Positions 16,129-62,032 of a DNA stretch of 64,000 nt are shown piece by piece. Both the position numbers and the translations under genes were made by a program. The stretch spans positions 1-64,000 of the forward strand of contig CAMHSB010000004.1 in NCBI GenBank assembly GCA_946187695.1. The letters are read 5' to 3'. The notes beneath the pieces are model-generated. The model was not told where the DNA came from. It was given only the letters and a program-made list of their open reading frames with translations, and did no database searches. How positions within the stretch are numbered: position 1 is the first letter of the stretch; every line of letters begins with the position of its first letter. Origin of the DNA: an uncultured Bacteroidales bacterium. GTDB taxonomy: Bacteria > Bacteroidota > Bacteroidia > Bacteroidales > Paludibacteraceae.

Positions 16129-16160
16129 CAAAAGTAGTAAAAATTTTGCATATATGCAAA
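16129..16160 (-). promoter_or_regulatory. promoter of the exonuclease gene
   Basis: On the minus strand TTTG (16160-16157), 20 bases, TACTTTTG (16136-16129). Its -33 box is the right arm of TTTGCATATATGCAAA (16145-16160). Confidence 0.85.
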
Positions 16161-16176
16161 TAATTTTGTATCTTTG
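16145..16176 (+). promoter_or_regulatory. promoter of the 16219 gene
   Basis: TTTG (16145-16148), 20 bases, TATCTTTG (16169-16176). Its -33 box is the left arm of the same palindrome used by the opposing promoter. Confidence 0.85.
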
Positions 16177-31403: not shown

Positions 31404-31435
31404 CAAAAGTACTACAAAATTTGCATATATGCAAA
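31404..31435 (-). promoter_or_regulatory. promoter of the sigma-54 activator/lptE gene
   Basis: Minus-strand TTTG (31435-31432), 20 bases, TACTTTTG (31411-31404). The -33 box is one arm of TTTGCATATATGCAAA (31420-31435), as at 16145. Confidence 0.85.
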
Positions 31436-53295: not shown

Positions 53296-54762
53296 TTATT
53301 TTACTAACTGTCCTTGGATGGTGTATATGTGGTTAGCGCGGAGGATGAGGATCTGACCGTTATGGAGGACTTTCTGTGCTTTGTCAACCACAGGGAGGTT
53401 CTCCAAAGCTTGTTTGTCCTTCGGACCGATCTCTACATGCAGGGCCGTAAGGCCGTCTGATTGTACGAATGTGCCGTCCGCTACATGAACACCTTCGGTC
53501 AAGATAGCGGTATGCTCACCCAGTTCCAGGTCTCCTAACAGCACAGCCATCGCACCCCATTGTCTCGGATCTTCACCCGGAGCTGCTTCAATCTCCAGTT
53601 TTACGTCCAAATAGCTGTTATCTTGCACGGCAAGCGTTTCACACGCCATAAGCGGGTGGGGCGTATCACCTGTGACATACACTTTGGTGCCATCAATGGT
53701 GATCTTGCTCTCTGCATTTAACTGCGGGAAACGACCATCCAAGGTTAGGCTGCTGTTTGCATCGCCGGTGAGATAGAGCTCCCATCCGCCGAAGATACCG
53801 GCAGAGTTGTTCTTAATGGCGCAGTTACCGATTACTTTGATATTCAAAGGCAGCGGGCCGCTATAGTAGTCCAACCAATCCATCCAACCCATCGAATTGT
53901 CTTCTTCCTCAGTAAAGATCTTTTGGAAGTTGTTCATCGTAAGGGTGCGGGTTGCAATATCGAAGGATAACTTGCCGTCTCCGAGGATATCGTTGCAGTT
54001 CTCGGATGTCACTTTGACCATATCGAAGCCGAGATACGTGCCGCCGCCTCCCCAAGGATGTTCGGTGCGTTCCAAAGCCATCACTTCCATAGCGAAATAA
54101 TCACCCTCTTTAACTACCAGTTTCCAAGATGCGCTCAGCGAGTCGATACCCAGTTTCTTATCACCGGGATAAGTAGCGGTGATCATAGATTCTCCTTTAC
54201 CGACCACAGTAATGAATCCACGCTTGTCCACAGTACCTACTTTTTCATTGGAAGAGGAGTACGTCAGGGGTACTTGGAGCGGGTTATAGGCTTCCAATAT
54301 TCTGTACGGCCGACCTGCATACGCAGTATAGGAAGTGTCAACTTCCATATTGAAAGACAGGAAGATTGTTCCTTCATAGTAGAAATGCAAGGTCTTAACG
54401 GTGTCATTAGGCGCTACTTCGTTAAGATTCCAATAAACACTCCAACGGACATTCTTGTACTCGTCTGAGCTTAGACGAGTTGTGTCTTTGCTGAGCGCTA
54501 CATGGTTCTCAAAGTGCATACGAGCAATCGTGTCGTAACTGGAACTATTGCTATACCAACGGTCTGCTACCACGTCCAACTTACCGGCGTAAGCAGCAGC
54601 CTCCGCATCTATTACCATACGTAGCATGGTTGTGTTGACAGAGGAGCGAAGAACGCCATCCAACTCGTATCCGTTTCCAGAATCGATATACTTCGGATAC
54701 TCATTTTGAGCCATCAGCGGAAGTGCTACCATTGCGATGGCAAAAAGGAAAAACTTTTTCAT
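53296..54762 (-). CDS. secreted beta-rich protein with short C-terminal tail
   Basis: This 488-residue protein has a signal peptide (MKKFFLFAIAMVALPLMAQ). A Big-type Ig-like repeat lies at about residues 160-215 (VPLTYSSSNEKVGTVDKRGFITVVGKGESMITATYPG). A beta-helix-like C-terminal part follows (LTMNNFQKIF, LTGDANSSLTLDGRFP), with the tail VLHNGQILILRANHIYTIQG at the end. No catalytic domain is recognised. It lies 23 bases after the 54786 gene, so the two tail-bearing proteins form one transcript that ends at the 53226 terminator. Confidence 0.82.
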   Translation of the reverse strand: MKKFFLFAIAMVALPLMAQNEYPKYIDSGNGYELDGVLRSSVNTTMLRMVIDAEAAAYAGKLDVVADRWYSNSSSYDTIARMHFENHVALSKDTTRLSSDEYKNVRWSVYWNLNEVAPNDTVKTLHFYYEGTIFLSFNMEVDTSYTAYAGRPYRILEAYNPLQVPLTYSSSNEKVGTVDKRGFITVVGKGESMITATYPGDKKLGIDSLSASWKLVVKEGDYFAMEVMALERTEHPWGGGGTYLGFDMVKVTSENCNDILGDGKLSFDIATRTLTMNNFQKIFTEEEDNSMGWMDWLDYYSGPLPLNIKVIGNCAIKNNSAGIFGGWELYLTGDANSSLTLDGRFPQLNAESKITIDGTKVYVTGDTPHPLMACETLAVQDNSYLDVKLEIEAAPGEDPRQWGAMAVLLGDLELGEHTAILTEGVHVADGTFVQSDGLTALHVEIGPKDKQALENLPVVDKAQKVLHNGQILILRANHIYTIQGQLVK

Positions 54763-54785
54763 ATAAATAAATTAACATTGATATT

Positions 54786-55868
54786 TTATTTTAACTCTGT
54801 GCCGAGGGCATTGAAGGTGCGACCGTCGCGGAGAATGAAGAGTTGGCCGTCACGAACAGTCTTATAAGCTTTTTGTGCGGGCTGCACATGCTCGAATCCT
54901 TCAGTCTCGCCTTCTTCGAGGATAGTGAACTTACTCCATTCCGGGTCGGCTTGATAGAGAGCCTTGGTGCCCTTTGGTACACGCAGTTTGGGGAGCGGCA
55001 AAGAAGTCTCGGTATCCCAATCGTACGCACCCTCGATTCCTTCTTCTTCCAGAACGCCGGCCGGCTCCATGATAAGGGAGGTGATTTCTTCTGCAACAAT
55101 ACCTCTAAAAGCACGTGCTTGAATATTCTTGAGGCTTGCAGGGAAAGTTACTTCCTCAAGCGGCGCCTCGGTGAATGCACCAAAAGCGATGGTGTCCAGT
55201 TTGGACGGGAAGTTGATATGTGCGAGTGAGTCGCAGGCAGAGAAAGCGCCGATGTCGATCTTACGTACCGACTCCGGAAGTGTGACACTCTTCAGTCGCT
55301 CGCAGTTGAAGAAGATTCGCTCCGGAATGACGGTGACGTCCTCGTCAAAGGTAACGTGCTGCATGTTGAAACAACCTTGGTAGAGCGACATGCCCCATTC
55401 GGCCATTTTTGCCGAAACATGTGCAGAATTCAGGCCGGTACTGTTAAATGCAGATTCTCCAATATACTCCACCGATTCCGGTATGTTGATGCTGGTAAGC
55501 GAACTATCGCCGGCAAACGCCCAACCGCCAATAGATTTGATAGTGTTCGGCAGGGTAATGGATTGGATGGACGGTGAGTTATAAAGGGCATTGTGATCGA
55601 TCGCTACAACCGTCAGACCTCCTGCCATAGCAGGTACATTGATGACCGGATCGGTATAAACATATTCCGTCCATGTAATCCACGAAGGATCCGAAGAGGA
55701 ATCATAATATGGCAGCACGAGCATCGCGCCACCTTCGCAATTCTTGTAGTAGAGAGTGACGCCTTCGCCATTATCGGCAGAAAAATCATAGGACTCTCTA
55801 ATCATTCCTCCCGCAAAAGCGGAAATGTTCATCATCAGGAGCAGGGTTGCAAAAAATGTTTTTCTCAT
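54786..55868 (-). CDS. BspA-type leucine-rich repeat surface protein with short C-terminal tail
   Basis: The start is moved from 55901 to 55868, since the upstream part is a promoter -7 box and MRKTFFATLLLMMNISAFA is a signal peptide. The 360-residue product carries about six LRR_5 repeats (ITLPNTIKSIGGWAFAG, INIPESVEYIGESAF, VTLPESVRKIDIGAF and so on) at about residues 90-265. These are typical of BspA-like surface proteins that bind host or bacterial ligands. It ends with the tail TVRDGQLFILRDGRTFNALG. Confidence 0.88.
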   Translation of the reverse strand: MRKTFFATLLLMMNISAFAGGMIRESYDFSADNGEGVTLYYKNCEGGAMLVLPYYDSSSDPSWITWTEYVYTDPVINVPAMAGGLTVVAIDHNALYNSPSIQSITLPNTIKSIGGWAFAGDSSLTSINIPESVEYIGESAFNSTGLNSAHVSAKMAEWGMSLYQGCFNMQHVTFDEDVTVIPERIFFNCERLKSVTLPESVRKIDIGAFSACDSLAHINFPSKLDTIAFGAFTEAPLEEVTFPASLKNIQARAFRGIVAEEITSLIMEPAGVLEEEGIEGAYDWDTETSLPLPKLRVPKGTKALYQADPEWSKFTILEEGETEGFEHVQPAQKAYKTVRDGQLFILRDGRTFNALGTELK

Positions 55869-55900
55869 AATAAACGTTGGTTTTGATTCAAATTTGCGCA

Positions 55901-55908
55901 CAAAAGTA
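55901..55908 (-). promoter_or_regulatory. -7 box upstream of the LRR gene
   Basis: Minus-strand TACTTTTG. No good -33 element is found 20 bases further up, so the promoter is weak or needs an activator. Confidence 0.6.
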
Positions 55909-55969: not shown

Positions 55970-57028
55970 TTAATTTTGTCGGTTTTGTTGCCGATATTGG
56001 AGGGGAGTAAGACCGGTGAGGTCCTTGAAAACGCGGTAGAAGGTCTGGTCGGAAGAGAATCCGCTGAGGGCGATAGCATCGGCGATGGCATCGTGGTCAG
56101 AGGTATATTTGGGATCGCGGAGCAGTTGTTGTGCATGCTCCACGCGGTAACGGGCTACAAACTGGGAGAAACTGAAACCGGTGCAGCGGTTGATACAGTT
56201 GGAGACGTAGGTGCGGTTGGAGCCGACAGCGGTCGCAAGGTCTTGAATAGTGAGATGAGGATTGGTGAAGAGTTGCTGCTCGCGCAGGGTGGTTCCAATC
56301 TTATACATCAGGGCATCGGTCTCTTCGGTGGTCGCTTTGTCTTCCTGCGGCTCTTCGAGCGCAACGGTCTCTTTCGGCAGGATCGTGTGGGCTGCGACGT
56401 AACCGAGGCTGAAGAGCAGCACGGACATCAGGATGGCCGGAATGAAAACCAGCAGGCTGCCTTCAAACGTATCGCGTCCGAGGATATTGAGTAATGTGGA
56501 TACAACGGCGGTGATACCGATGAGAATAAGCAGCGTGTGGGTCGGCTGGAGAATGAAACTACGGTTGTCGGCGTAGGTATTGTCCAAGCGTTGTTGCGTG
56601 TTGCGTATCAGACGGTATCCGCGAATCAGTACCCAGATGACTTGTGCTGCAAAGCATATACGTGCTGCCAAATGAATAGGTACGTTGAACGGGAAGAGGA
56701 TTGTTACTAGTACCGCAGGAAGGAGAAGAAGCAGGACTTCGTAATCGATCTACGTGCGCGTGAGTGCGCGCAGGTACGCATAGTATAAAGGATATACGCA
56801 CAGGTTGACGATCAGGTAACTCCATTCGCCGATGAAACTCGGACAGTCGGAGAAATAGAGCCAGTGATCGGTGTAGAGAATGGTGGTAGCGATGTAGAAA
56901 AGCAGAATCGTGCCCGTGACGCGCGGCTCGTCATTGCCGCGGAACAAACGGATGGCGAAGAAGATGGTCCAGAAGAGACACACCATCATCGGAAGCGATA
57001 TAATCCAGTTGTATAACAAGTTTGGCAC
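55970..57028 (-). pseudogene. AraC-type membrane-anchored regulator with one in-frame amber stop
   Basis: The two ORFs at 57028-56750 and 56671-55970 are in the same frame, split only by TAG at 56752-56750. Without it the product is about 352 residues. The N-terminal part has several hydrophobic helices (MPNLLYNWIISLPMMVCLFW, GTILLFYIATTILY), and the C-terminal AraC domain reads LTIQDLATAVGSNRTYVSNCINRCTGFSFSQFVARYRVEHA and FSSDQTFYRVFKDLTGLTPLQYRQQ. The rest looks intact, so this is a young nonsense mutation, a sequencing error or a readthrough site. Confidence 0.85.
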
Positions 57029-57136: not shown

Positions 57137-58456
57137 TTATTCGGTTACTTTGCGGTATTTGCCTTCGATAAGGAGCATACCGGGGAGAATCTCGCCGCCG
57201 GCAGTCTTGACGAAAGTCGTGTAGGGCAGAGTAGCGCCATCAGCCTCTTCGAGCACGGCGTTGTAGCGGTTGTCCCAGATCTGACCTTTCTTGGGCTTGA
57301 CGGTCGCTACGTATTTGTATTTCGTCTTACCGGTCTCGGGATCTTGGAGACGTTGTACCACCTGGAACTTGGAACTCTCGTTAATACCTTCCTTCATGCC
57401 GATCTTCGCAGCGTAGCCTTCGAGTTTGCCTTTCTCGTTGGTGAGAATGGAATAGACGGGAGTCTTGACCTTGAAGTCCTCGTATTGCTTGGCGAGCGCC
57501 ACGATGTTCTTATCCATCGAGCGGGCACAGATCGTACGAACGAGTTCGGTACGCGAGTACTTACCCTTGAGCACGGATTTCTTATCGAACTCGTACTCGT
57601 GCGCCACATACTTGAGGCGGTAGGTGGTTTCGTCGTTGAGGAAAGCTTTGATCTTCTCGGGATTCGGCGTTCCGGTATAATGGAACTGGTAGAAGATTGC
57701 AGCAATCGAGTCGTTCCACTCCAGCTGGTAGAGATACGAGTGTGTCTTGACCTTAAAGCCCGTGAAACTGTCAGCTATCTGTCCCGCTGCTTTGGCGAGG
57801 TCTCGTCCGCCGCTTCCCCCGGTGATGCCATCCAATATACCTCCGATGATACCCATTGCGGCCTTGGCGGCTGCGGCTTCCTGCTCGGCGGTGATATAGG
57901 TGATATCGTTGACAAGCACGAAGGTGTTATGCAGCAACTCTTCGCCGGCATCGGAGAGGGACGCAAGTCCGCGGGTGGTCTGCAGTGCAAGGGCCACATC
58001 CACATCGTTAGCGTTGTATTGGCCGCGCGTTTGGATGAGCTTGGTGTTGAACGTTGCTTCATCTACCGTACTACCCGTGAGCCCGAACCATTTGGCAACC
58101 ATGTATTTCGCCATCTGTTTCTCGTTGAGCAGATTTTCAGTGTGTTGCGCGTTCTTCTGCAACTCCTGCGCGGTCAGTTGGTGACCGTAAGTCGCTTTGA
58201 AATAACCCGAGTCACGACGTTGGAGCCCCCAGATGTGACGGTTGTTAATGACCCGCATACCGGCGATCGTGTGATCGTCGTACTTGTCTGGGATGGGCAG
58301 GGAGTCGAAGGCCTTGTAGATCTCGCCTCCGAACTCATCCTCGGGGTGATAAACCAACATCGTCGCCAGCGAGTTGCGGCGATAACTTAATTGCTCCTGC
58401 GCTTGTGCGGCAATCACCGCACAAACACAGAGCAATGTGATTAGGGTTTGTTTCAT
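57137..58456 (-). CDS. secreted protein of unknown function (fifth gene of operon)
   Basis: This 439-residue protein has a signal peptide (MKQTLITLLCVCAVIAAQAQ). An alpha-beta N-terminal region is followed by a Gly/Ala-rich stretch (AAMGIIGGILDGITGGSGG, about residues 205-223) and a C-terminal beta region with GQIWDNRYNAVLEE and LPGMLLIEGKYRKVTE. I do not recognise a family. It overlaps the preceding gene by four bases (ATGA), so it is the last member of a tightly coupled five-gene operon. All five products carry export signals, so a joint envelope function is likely. Confidence 0.75.
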   Translation of the reverse strand: MKQTLITLLCVCAVIAAQAQEQLSYRRNSLATMLVYHPEDEFGGEIYKAFDSLPIPDKYDDHTIAGMRVINNRHIWGLQRRDSGYFKATYGHQLTAQELQKNAQHTENLLNEKQMAKYMVAKWFGLTGSTVDEATFNTKLIQTRGQYNANDVDVALALQTTRGLASLSDAGEELLHNTFVLVNDITYITAEQEAAAAKAAMGIIGGILDGITGGSGGRDLAKAAGQIADSFTGFKVKTHSYLYQLEWNDSIAAIFYQFHYTGTPNPEKIKAFLNDETTYRLKYVAHEYEFDKKSVLKGKYSRTELVRTICARSMDKNIVALAKQYEDFKVKTPVYSILTNEKGKLEGYAAKIGMKEGINESSKFQVVQRLQDPETGKTKYKYVATVKPKKGQIWDNRYNAVLEEADGATLPYTTFVKTAGGEILPGMLLIEGKYRKVTE

Positions 58457-59391
58457 AACAACGTTCTAAGGAACTCGATATTGACTTCTTTGTTCGGCTG
58501 GTGGTTACCGTAAGCGACACCGATCTGACGAGCTGCATCGATCTGCAGTTTCTGGAGGTCAATGCCGTCCTGATATTGCTTCATCTCGAACTTCCAATCG
58601 TCAAGAACCTTACCCTTGATCTCTTTGTAGAGCGTCATCGCATCGCCATAGCACTTGGCATCAGGCATGATGTTGGCTAAATATTCACCGGCTGCTGCTG
58701 CACCGACTGCGTTCTGCTCTGCAGCCCAGGCTTGACGTGCTTTGCCGAGGTTGATATAGCACTGGTTGTCGATGTAAGCCTGATAGATCTCTTGACCGGC
58801 AGCAAGAGCAGCATCGTAGTGCTTGGACTGCTGCGGGATGAGCGATACCCAGTACATCGCTTCCTCGTAGTTCTTCTGTGCGGCGAGGAAATGGGCCTTC
58901 TTGATCAGCGCTTCGCCTTCGTGGTCGTAGTACTCAATAATCTTGGTCTTACCTTCGTCCACGAACTTCGCGATAGCCGGCGATTGAAGAGGCATATGGC
59001 TGATGGCGTTCAGGTAGCACTTATTCTCCGTCTCACCCAGACCGTTGACAGTCATGGAGGTGGAAGAGAAAATGGTCTTTGCGTACGCGTCCACGATATA
59101 GAGGTTCATCTCCATTTTCTCGCGAATCTTCATAGGAGGTCCGGGGATGACATCTTTGTCGATCGGGGTGGTGGTGACGGTGAGGATGAACTGGCCCATA
59201 TAATCCAGACCGGCAATACCGTTGCGGGTCAGCAGTTGGGTCAGTTTGTTCTCGATCATGGCTTTAGCGCCTTGCGGGAACGACTCTTGGTCATCCATAG
59301 CGTACACGGAGATAGGCAGATATTGCGTCTCTGCGGCGAACATAGTAGCACTCATGAGCGCGGCCATGCATATGGAAAAAATCTTTTTCAT
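58453..59391 (-). CDS. secreted protein of unknown function (fourth gene of operon)
   Basis: This 312-residue protein has a signal peptide (MKKIFSICMAALMSATMFA). A domain at about residues 25-135 begins LPISVYAMDDQESFPQGAKAMIENKLTQLLTRNG. That layout recalls the nucleotide-free alpha/beta domain of CsgG/LpoB-type periplasmic proteins, but the resemblance is weak. The C-terminal half is helical and TPR-like (LIKKAHFLAAQKNYEEAMYWVSLIPQQ). The function is unknown. It starts one base after the upstream stop. Confidence 0.75.
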   Translation of the reverse strand: MKKIFSICMAALMSATMFAAETQYLPISVYAMDDQESFPQGAKAMIENKLTQLLTRNGIAGLDYMGQFILTVTTTPIDKDVIPGPPMKIREKMEMNLYIVDAYAKTIFSSTSMTVNGLGETENKCYLNAISHMPLQSPAIAKFVDEGKTKIIEYYDHEGEALIKKAHFLAAQKNYEEAMYWVSLIPQQSKHYDAALAAGQEIYQAYIDNQCYINLGKARQAWAAEQNAVGAAAAGEYLANIMPDAKCYGDAMTLYKEIKGKVLDDWKFEMKQYQDGIDLQKLQIDAARQIGVAYGNHQPNKEVNIEFLRTLL

Positions 59392-59392
59392 A

Positions 59393-60343
59393 TTATTTCT
59401 CTCCTAAAATGATCACAGCACGGCCAAGACCTTTAACTAGGACTTTGGACGGGATGTTATACGGTTCTTTCTTGAGCATTTTCGCGAGCCCTTTGGCAAA
59501 AGCGTTCGCATCGATAGCACGTCCGCGCTCGTCATAAACCGGAATACGTACCTGCGTGAAGTTCGCTACGTTCTCCGAAGCGTACGGCATCGAGAAACGA
59601 CCTTGCACGGTGTTGAGTTGGAGCCAGTTATTGATGACGTCGATCAACTCATCGTCGCCAAACTCGGTCTCAAGGTCCACACCGGCTGCGTTGTTAGCAA
59701 ACACTTTGACGTCCATGCTGATCTCACGACCAATCTGCTGCATCTCTTCGAAATGTGCCTGCAAACGGTTGTTGAAATTATCCATGTTGGCTACGATCGC
59801 CTCTTCGAGCAGTACGTCCACGTCTGCCGAAAAAGAGGGAGCACCCGTACCGGCAGCAGAGCCGATGGACTTGGCGGTATAGGCATCGCGGCCTTCGAGA
59901 ATGTAAGAGAGGGAGTGTTTCGGTCCCATATCTTTGACATCCCAAGTGAGCTCAAGGATGATGTCACATTTCGCAGTACGAGCTACCTCATCCAGCGGTG
60001 ACTCGGACAGTTCATTACCGGCCTTGCTGGTCGTGAGGTTGTCTTCCATACGACGTTGCTCGAGGTTCTTGAGCTCTTGCTCAAGGCTCTTGAGCGGGAA
60101 CTGACGCTCGGCCATGAGATCGTTGATCTTGGCAATAGCCAGTTTGAGACCCATATTCTCCTGAAGTGCCTGTTTGTAGTTCGGCACTTTGGCGGTTGTA
60201 CCCATGTTCTCAACCTCGGTGTAGTAACCGTTATTGATACACCAAACGTCAGACGGGATAACCATCAACTCGGGTTTCTTGATCTGTGCACTCGCCATCA
60301 GCGCTACCAGCGCGAGAGCGAGGGTGAATAGTGACTTTTTCAT
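59393..60343 (-). CDS. DUF6175-like secreted protein (third gene of operon)
   Basis: This 316-residue protein has a signal peptide (MKKSLFTLALALVALMASAQ). The opening IKKPELMVIPSDVWCINNGY and the EQELKNLEQRRMEDN / ELSESPLDEVARTAKCDIILELTW stretches match my memory of the Bacteroidota family DUF6175. Its C-terminal half holds an alpha/beta domain ending VLVKGLGRAVIILGEK. No function is known. Only one base separates it from each neighbour. Confidence 0.72.
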   Translation of the reverse strand: MKKSLFTLALALVALMASAQIKKPELMVIPSDVWCINNGYYTEVENMGTTAKVPNYKQALQENMGLKLAIAKINDLMAERQFPLKSLEQELKNLEQRRMEDNLTTSKAGNELSESPLDEVARTAKCDIILELTWDVKDMGPKHSLSYILEGRDAYTAKSIGSAAGTGAPSFSADVDVLLEEAIVANMDNFNNRLQAHFEEMQQIGREISMDVKVFANNAAGVDLETEFGDDELIDVINNWLQLNTVQGRFSMPYASENVANFTQVRIPVYDERGRAIDANAFAKGLAKMLKKEPYNIPSKVLVKGLGRAVIILGEK

Positions 60344-60344
60344 A

Positions 60345-60836
60345 TTAATATCTTCCTTCCATAGGGATTATACCATCCATTCTTAATCTTTGTTGCAGAC
60401 CTGCGCGATCCACGGTCACGGTCACAGACTCCACCATCTGACGACCGTCGCGTTGATAACGGGTAGAACCGACACGTTTGTCTTTGAGGTTGGCATATTG
60501 AGTCCATGCACCACCGTCTGCGAAGAAAGCGTTGAAGTAGTCCTCATGTTTCTCGCGTGCGTTCATGTCGAAACATAGCGGTTTGAGGTCCGAGATGCCG
60601 TTACTACCGGCTTTGACACCATTGAAGATCACTTCCTGAACGGCTTTGCGTTGGCCGTCTGTGAAAGCAAGCACCGCATCTTTGGCGCGTACTTGTACGC
60701 GGATGACATAACTGCCGTCGTAGTTGGCGCTGAGCACCACACTCGGTTTCTCGTAGTAGGCCTGCGAGCGCTTGGTGCCGCACGATGCGAGAAGAATCAT
60801 CGCAAAAGCGGCAATGAATATACTTAACTTTTTCAT
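60345..60836 (-). CDS. lipoprotein of unknown function (second gene of operon)
   Basis: This 163-residue lipoprotein (lipobox in MILLASCGTKRSQ) is a distant paralogue of the first gene of the operon. Both share an RKAV-x-x-VIF-x-G segment, then E-x-YF-x-x-FFADGG-x-x-x-x-YA, and end with a strand and helix (VTVDRAGLQQRLRMDG). One is a lipoprotein and the other is a soluble periplasmic form, so they may make a membrane-bound and free pair. The family is not recognised. Confidence 0.78.
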   Translation of the reverse strand: MKKLSIFIAAFAMILLASCGTKRSQAYYEKPSVVLSANYDGSYVIRVQVRAKDAVLAFTDGQRKAVQEVIFNGVKAGSNGISDLKPLCFDMNAREKHEDYFNAFFADGGAWTQYANLKDKRVGSTRYQRDGRQMVESVTVTVDRAGLQQRLRMDGIIPMEGRY

Positions 60837-60850
60837 AATGGTCTATCTGT

Positions 60851-61348
60851 TTAGAATCCTGAATTGAGTCCACGAATCACGCCGGCAGCTTCGAGTGCTT
60901 TGCGCAGATCGTCTTTGCGCACACTGACCACGCAGCCGACTTTGTATTCTTTACCTACCTTCACGGTTTCGGTAGTACCGCCCATGATAGAAGCATATTT
61001 CTGGAACTCGCCGCCGTCTGCGAAGAAGCTCTTGAAATACTCCTCAAACTGGGTCTCTACTCCGGGAGAACTGGCCATCGGACGTTGCGAAACGCAACCC
61101 TGACCACCGCCGTAACCCTTGAAGATCACACCGTGTACGGCGTTCTTACGGCATTGGTTCTCTGCCACCGATGCTTTCTTGGAATAGGTCCACACTTTTA
61201 CGAGATAGGTGCCTTGAATAGCATTGCCGGCACACTCGATCTCATAGCGGAACTGATCCGTATCTTTGTTCGCCTGTTTCTGGCGAAGACCTGCGCTCGC
61301 CGGCAGACATAATGCCATAACGAGCAATGAAAGAAGAATTTTTTTCAT
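60851..61348 (-). CDS. secreted protein of unknown function (first gene of operon)
   Basis: This 165-residue protein has a signal peptide (MKKILLSLLVMALCLPASAG). The mature domain shares RKNAVHGVIFKGYGG and EEYFKSFFADGGEFQKYA with the lipoprotein encoded 14 bases downstream. Two extra Cys residues (ECAGN, QCRKN) and a third at GCVSQ hint at disulfides. It is the promoter-proximal gene of the five-gene operon. The function is unknown. Confidence 0.78.
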   Translation of the reverse strand: MKKILLSLLVMALCLPASAGLRQKQANKDTDQFRYEIECAGNAIQGTYLVKVWTYSKKASVAENQCRKNAVHGVIFKGYGGGQGCVSQRPMASSPGVETQFEEYFKSFFADGGEFQKYASIMGGTTETVKVGKEYKVGCVVSVRKDDLRKALEAAGVIRGLNSGF

Positions 61349-61399
61349 ATAATAATAGATTTAATTTGTGTTTCGTAGATTTAATATCAGTTTCGGCGG

Positions 61400-61431
61400 C
61401 AAAGATACGAAATCTTTTGCATACATGCAAA
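61400..61431 (-). promoter_or_regulatory. promoter of the five-gene secreted operon
   Basis: Minus-strand TTTG (61431-61428), 20 bases, TATCTTTG (61407-61400). The spacer begins CATGTATGCAAA, a near match to the palindrome. Confidence 0.85.
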
Positions 61432-61537: not shown

Positions 61538-62032
61538 TTAGAATTTGTAACGAACGCCCAACTGGATACCACCCCAGAGACCACGGTGGTTAAACTCAAT
61601 ACCGTTGTTACCGGCGATACCGATTGACGGACGCCAATCCAAGGAGAGTTGGAACGGGAACCAGAAGTCATACTCGATACCGATATGACCGGCTACACCT
61701 GCGTACCACCAACCTTTAACATCACTCGTCGGGAAGACGAAACCGCCCGAACCACCGACACCCATGTACCAGTGCCACTCACCCTTGTTGTTCCAAGGAA
61801 CGGGAGCGTTGAACGGATCGATCCAATCGTAGGTTACATGACCACCGACACCCACACCGCTGTTAATCGGCAGGATGACGTTAGCAGCAACGTCTAACAT
61901 GTTGCTCTCGCCAAAACCATGCTGATAAGAGAACGACGACCATGCACCGAGGTTAACACCGACAGCACGAGGTTGTGCATAAGCTGCCAAGCTGGCTACA
62001 GCCAAGACAGCTACAAAAAGATATTTTTTCAT
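61538..62032 (-). CDS. small outer-membrane beta-barrel protein
   Basis: This 164-residue protein has a signal peptide (MKKYLFVAVLAVASLAAYA). About eight alternating strands follow (AVGVNLGAWSSFSYQ, VGVGGHVTYDWIDP, WWYAGVAGHIGIEYDF, GGIQLGVRYKF), ending in an aromatic residue, as in outer-membrane barrels. The barrel is small and resembles the outer-membrane beta-barrel domain of OmpW/OmpX-like proteins. The role is unknown. No promoter is found upstream in the 130-base gap. Confidence 0.8.
   Translation of the reverse strand: MKKYLFVAVLAVASLAAYAQPRAVGVNLGAWSSFSYQHGFGESNMLDVAANVILPINSGVGVGGHVTYDWIDPFNAPVPWNNKGEWHWYMGVGGSGGFVFPTSDVKGWWYAGVAGHIGIEYDFWFPFQLSLDWRPSIGIAGNNGIEFNHRGLWGGIQLGVRYKF

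Follow-up and report, generated by a model that had tools for sequence, protein, structure and literature searches.

What kind of structure, if any, is encoded by a compact operon of five exported proteins in an uncultured Bacteroidales bacterium of the family Paludibacteraceae? The operon lies on the minus strand of contig CAMHSB010000004.1 (assembly GCA_946187695.1), of which positions 1 to 64,000 were analysed. We refer to this whole stretch of 64,000 nucleotides as the window and to the genes, in the order of their transcription, as A to E. That they form a conserved system, and that their products are kin to the modules of FlgT, CsgG and LPP20-type proteins, is well supported. Because FlgT-like, CsgG/FlgO-like and LPP20-like exported parts, some of them membrane-anchored, occur together in bacteria without FlgH, the flagellar L-ring protein, we favour the suggestion that the operon specifies a periplasmic ring or scaffold of such modules, associated with the outer membrane and independent of flagella. 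We would lay about as much weight for this suggestion as against it; ring formation, oligomerisation, complex formation and function are what we infer.

The five genes

The operon consists of five open reading frames (ORFs). The genes and their parts are as follows.

60851..61348, minus strand: gene A, 165 amino acids (aa), exported, not a lipoprotein; aligns with the N-terminal part of the modelled A-C fusion
60345..60836, minus strand: gene B, 163 aa, lipoprotein, paralogue of A
60780..60791, minus strand: lipobox LASC of B, with Cys19 predicted to be lipidated
59393..60343, minus strand: gene C, 316 aa, DUF6175 (PF19672); a homologue of C lies within the modelled A-C fusion
58453..59391, minus strand: gene D, 312 aa, exported; a domain of unknown fold at the N-terminus, then TPR-like repeats
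58612..58944, minus strand: TPR-like region of D, limits approximate (about residues 150-260)
57137..58456, minus strand: gene E, 439 aa; member of a FlgT-like family, in its subfamily without a barrel (E2); the model is of the subfamily with one (E1)
57755..57889, minus strand: glycine/alanine (Gly/Ala)-rich insert of E, residues 190-234; a feature of E2, the same loop being shorter in E1

A and B are separated by 14 bases, B and C as well as C and D by a single base, and D and E overlap by 4 bases. Each of the five products begins with a hydrophobic stretch resembling a signal peptide, and no strong segment of transmembrane-helix type was found in A-E beyond the signal region. A lipobox is present in B only. 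At 28% identity (BLASTP E=1e-19) A and B are clearly paralogues, and when lipoboxes were scored across 60 two-copy loci, the second copy had one in 51 and the first copy in 8. C matches PF19672 over residues 22-314 with E=6e-106 and 354 bits (the Pfam cut-off is 23). Pfam names C alone among the five, NCBIfam yielded nothing above cut-off for any of A-E, and DUF6175 is a family of unknown function for which no paper naming it was found in the literature searched. A preliminary description of this locus, made from the DNA letters alone, had proposed tight spacing, export signals on all products with one lipobox, paralogy of the first two genes and a DUF6175-like third gene; all of this was borne out. 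The median ratio of non-synonymous to synonymous substitution rates (dN/dS) is 0.06-0.11 for the five genes (up to 28 relatives), a range to be read with dS close to saturation and some pairs unscorable, and it indicates purifying selection on all of them. Since ORFs and signals are confirmed and selection is purifying, the genes of the operon are real and conserved.

Predicted folds

When searched with profiles of A-E, the PDB yielded no significant homologue, the best hits of D being of TPR type (E ~0.02). Matches of E to complement C7 in that search (E ~0.5-1.3) are weak and we treat them as chance. Single chains of two relatives were modelled with AlphaFold2 and compared with the PDB by Foldseek: a natural A-C fusion (L037; predicted local distance difference test score, pLDDT, 90.7) and an E relative of subfamily E1 (L040; pLDDT 92.1). 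The best matches of the fusion are the LPHT ring of Vibrio (8z5n, E=3.9e-5) and FlgT (3w1e, E=4.9e-5), with ~430 columns each, and the match to FlgT spans the whole length of the fusion. CsgG (E ~1e-3), GNA1162, PelC and LpoB come next. The A part of the model runs strand-strand-helix, insert, strands, helix. The E relative aligns with the same FlgT structure over 374 columns (E=8.1e-6, prob 1.00), and its eight C-terminal strands match small outer-membrane barrels, e.g. OprF and Ail. The fifth gene had been described as unknown; a relative of its product now aligns with FlgT.

Some sequence support, albeit weak, comes from relatives. The FlgO model is matched by two members of the A/C alignment (best E=0.0011) and FlgT_C by one member of the E alignment (0.031). 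As far as such hints go, they would agree with the fold matches.

The fourth gene had been thought CsgG/LpoB-like with helical repeats. The repeats stand: D is TPR-like in its second half, where 19 of 51 relatives match PF25058 (best 4e-7). The proposed kinship of the first half with CsgG/LpoB was not found. Profile comparison does not support a CsgG-like N-terminal domain, its best match being the C-terminal part of LPP20 proteins (80% probability), and this half has no clear relative. CsgG-likeness appears to belong to C and E, not to D.

Conservation and neighbouring genes of the system

Two samples were used, one of 159 Bacteroidales genomes and one of 248 genomes from the phylum, with incomplete metagenome-assembled genomes (MAGs) among them; gene neighbours were read by eye. 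C is present in 38 of the 159 genomes. A, C and D accompany each other in 29 of these 38, and in 23 E, A, C and D stand in one same-strand cluster. Within the genus the usual order is A-B-C-D-E; elsewhere E-A-(B)-C-D is the commonest. Close named relatives are mainly rumen and gut Bacteroidales and Paludibacteraceae MAGs, and a cultured organism, Dysgonomonas macrotermitis DSM 27370, carries the gene set. In the phylum sample C occurs in 11 of 248 genomes, other classes included.

The versions in other classes of Bacteroidota are diverged, some consisting of an A-C fusion followed by an LPP20 protein; LPP20 proteins take the position of D there. Natural A-C fusions were seen in L037, L039, L258 and L264. 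One cluster has two fusion genes in tandem (L258:4366-8394, genome G383; 482 and 501 aa). At two loci, L261 and L262, the position of E is held by proteins that match the LpoB model (2e-8 and 5e-6) and also CsgG (2e-6 and 3e-6), with weak matches to FlgT_M and FlgT_C too; the CsgG cut-off is reached by these two replacements and by that in L061. Downstream of the system two further genes recur, which we call W and P and which profile comparison places in the LPP20 family. A strong match to W was found in 22 of the 159 genomes, and all 22 carry the system (hypergeometric P=1e-16).

The preliminary description had proposed a search for the same gene order in other Bacteroidales. The order is kept in many families and extends to other classes as well, which refutes strain-specificity. 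An undescribed envelope system was also suggested there. Conserved gene order gives good support to it, but the system is not without relatives, given its FlgT/CsgG/LPP20-type parts. Its five-gene extent holds in the window, but the system is bigger in many relatives, which add the LPP20-like W and often P. Nothing was found that points to the suggested role in stress.

Two subfamilies of E

The comparison set for E comprises 51 aligned relatives, window E included, in which a barrel was called when the C-terminal tail reached a line of 100 residues. All 15 barrel-bearing members (E1) have a shorter loop, of 10-38 residues, in one hairpin; all 36 barrel-less members (E2), window E among them, have an insert of 40-76 residues, mostly Gly/Ala-rich, in that same hairpin (L122, placed among the 36, has a tail of 98 residues, just below the line). 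In the model of E the position of the E2 insert is a hairpin loop. On a tree of the shared core one change suffices to explain presence and absence of the barrel. E1 and E2 are therefore two old, deeply split subfamilies, and repeated loss or gain of the barrel was rejected in view of the single deep split. In genome G344 both stand next to each other. The simplest reading of the E2 insert is that it may be an alternative membrane anchor.

Other barrel genes were seen in the vicinity of such clusters. Just upstream of A lies a small outer-membrane-barrel gene (61538-62032, minus strand), and 32 of 80 related loci have such a gene close to the cluster. We considered whether it could be the barrel of E split off, and rejected this: the two are not homologous (profile comparison 0.3%), and a terminator-like hairpin (61500-61463) sets the gene apart from the operon. 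Where E is barrel-less, a separate barrel-like gene of 205-238 aa sometimes lies inside or after the cluster (L346:6740-7456; after D in L339, L341, L343 and L347). Profile comparison shows no homology of these genes to the E barrel either.

Promoter, end hairpin and adjacent genes

Two signals frame the operon.

61400..61431, minus strand: promoter of Bacteroidota type, an exact match to TTTG-N20-TATCTTTG; its -33 box overlaps the palindrome TTTGCATGTATGCAAA
57104..57133, minus strand: stable hairpin directly after the stop codon of E, with no U-run on the minus strand

The good promoter that had been noticed earlier is thus confirmed as an exact match; the window holds 10 matches to the pattern against 0.68 expected. 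The strong end hairpin is upheld as to its stability (a 12-bp stem in the RNA of the minus strand, -20.1 kcal/mol, z=-6.7), but no U-run follows it on that strand; the T-rich tail is on the plus-strand side. Several promoter matches (16129-16176, 31404-31435, 61400-61431) have a -33 box that overlaps with a palindrome, TTTGCATATATGCAAA or one mismatch from it; when up to two mismatches are allowed, the window contains 5 copies where 0.03 would be expected. That the palindrome at the -33 box is a conserved operator for these five genes was rejected, since just 5 of the 57 upstream regions of relatives have one of that form.

Adjoining the operon is a gene for an AraC-type regulator (55970-57028, minus strand), divided by an in-frame stop near 56750 into ORFs of 92 and 233 aa in one frame. 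An intact relative (L043:6296-7378) is a single ORF of 361 aa; the split gene is possibly a pseudogene or an assembly error. Beyond it, at 53296-55901 on the minus strand, two secreted proteins are encoded that have a C-terminal stretch resembling the sorting signal of type IX secretion; one of them is leucine-rich-repeat-like.

What could the operon do?

Several suggestions can be made. If the products form a ring, E, being FlgT-like, would tie the complex to the outer membrane, in E1 by its C-terminal 8-strand barrel and in the E2 protein of the window perhaps by the Gly/Ala-rich insert. Lipoprotein B would be the lipid anchor. A, B and C would give FlgT-N-like and CsgG/PelC-like domains and oligomerise as a ring or disk beneath the outer membrane, to which D might dock a partner through its TPR-like repeats. 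Such a ring might lend the outer membrane stability or act as the collar of another machine. FlgH was found in none of the 159 Bacteroidales genomes, that of the window included (the positive control, E. coli, was detected).

A number of observations weigh against this reading. For FlgT the whole-chain template modelling (TM) scores are 0.15-0.17 (query) and 0.21-0.22 (target), and those for 8z5n are 0.17-0.26, all of them low, with a root-mean-square deviation of 14-25 A in the fold matches; low TM together with high deviation means that the resemblance to FlgT is domain-wise. The models are of single chains of two relatives, an A-C fusion and an E, with none of D or of an oligomer, and the modelled E, of subfamily E1, is just 25% identical to the E2 protein of the window. 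In the A part of the model the long helix is followed by an insert of mostly helical structure, unlike the beta-hairpin of the FlgP ring, so that the ring-forming hairpin insert after the SHS2 helix (PMC12222027) is lacking there. A-E of the window have no significant match to the models for FlgT (FlgT_N, FlgT_M, FlgT_C), FlgO or LPP20. Neither LPP20 nor W or P finds a match in the genome of the window.

Could the operon regulate cell-wall synthesis instead? LpoB is an outer-membrane lipoprotein that crosses the peptidoglycan to activate a synthase, and C, or the CsgG/LpoB-type replacement of E elsewhere, might act in the same manner. The LpoB-matching proteins in L261 and L262 fit this, as does the LpoB match of the A-C fusion model. 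However, in the Foldseek ranking LpoB stands below FlgT, CsgG and PelC, and C of the window is soluble and exported, the lipoprotein being B, a paralogue of A; lipobox and LpoB match do not coincide in any protein of the window. The neighbours, which were not searched systematically for it, showed no penicillin-binding protein, and a set of A-B-C-D-E exceeds the needs of an Lpo. We consider such a regulator improbable.

Another potential role is that of an accessory to type IX secretion or gliding, e.g. a collar around the PorK/N ring. In an order sample with no flagellar L-ring gene, type IX secretion is the obvious ring-bearing machine, and its motor gene GldL is present in the genome of the window and in 147 of the 159. 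Because GldL is nearly universal, its co-occurrence is uninformative about such a link: C, found in 38 genomes, is not tied to it, and GldL finds no match in G364 and G408, which both carry the operon. This role seems to us quite improbable.

That C or E oligomerises into a CsgG-like outer-membrane pore which secretes a substrate is the least probable of these explanations: CsgG comes next after FlgT in the matches of the fusion, some E-position proteins exceed the Pfam cut-off for CsgG and the E2 insert sits in a hairpin loop, but neither a CsgA/E/F-like gene nor one for a substrate was noticed beside the clusters, the monomer-type 8-strand barrel of E1 is ill-suited to a pore of CsgG type and C has no demonstrated pore-forming hairpins.

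Comparison with known systems

With the ring or scaffold as our preferred reading, it remains to set the operon beside systems already described. DUF6175 (PF19672) is the family to which C clearly belongs; with its operon partners it now gains a structural identity that can be tested. The C-containing model matches all four of CsgG, PelC, LpoB and GNA1162, and the replacements of E reach the CsgG cut-off; unlike members of that family, the window's C lacks a lipobox, Pfam calls it DUF6175 alone, and no curli or Pel genes were noticed beside the clusters. The CsgG model finds nothing in A-E or the rest of their own genome.

The LPP20 family takes in Lpp20 of H. pylori, whose fold is as in FlgP and FlgT; the SHS2 fold of FlgP is common to Lpp20 and FlgT, and ring formation accompanies an insert after the SHS2 helix (PMC12222027). 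The system resembles LPP20 lipoproteins and the FlgP basal disk of Campylobacter and Helicobacter in the LPP20 proteins at the D position in other classes and in its LPP20-like W and P. It differs from them in the genome of the window, which has no match to LPP20, W or P, and in the mostly helical insert of the A part.

The H ring of Vibrio, which surrounds the flagellar L ring, is made of FlgT, FlgO and FlgP (PMC6375700; PMC7693769). Here the likeness lies in the alignment of two predicted structures, the A-C fusion and the E relative, with FlgT, in the LPP20-type W and P of many relatives, in exported products with E1 directed to the outer membrane, and in the weak FlgO and FlgT_C matches of relatives. 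The differences are that FlgH is absent throughout the Bacteroidales sample, that the FlgT-like parts are divided between A/B and C, with E carrying a barrel or a Gly/Ala insert, that the TPR-like D is an additional part and that the proteins of the window have no significant sequence similarity to FlgT. A wider speculation, which we regard as rather unlikely though worth stating, is that Bacteroidota lacking flagella possess an equivalent of the flagellar H ring or basal disk, in the form of a free-standing ring at the outer membrane; its FlgT-like protein would be held there either by a beta-barrel of its own or through a Gly/Ala-rich insert. On this view there would be an older and more general kit for outer-membrane rings, of which the flagellar rings of Vibrio and Campylobacter represent one application. 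If the operon does encode a ring, supposed flagellar accessory parts live without flagella in other bacteria. This would bear on the origin of flagellar outer rings and add a new outer-membrane structure to the Bacteroidota, which are abundant in gut and rumen.

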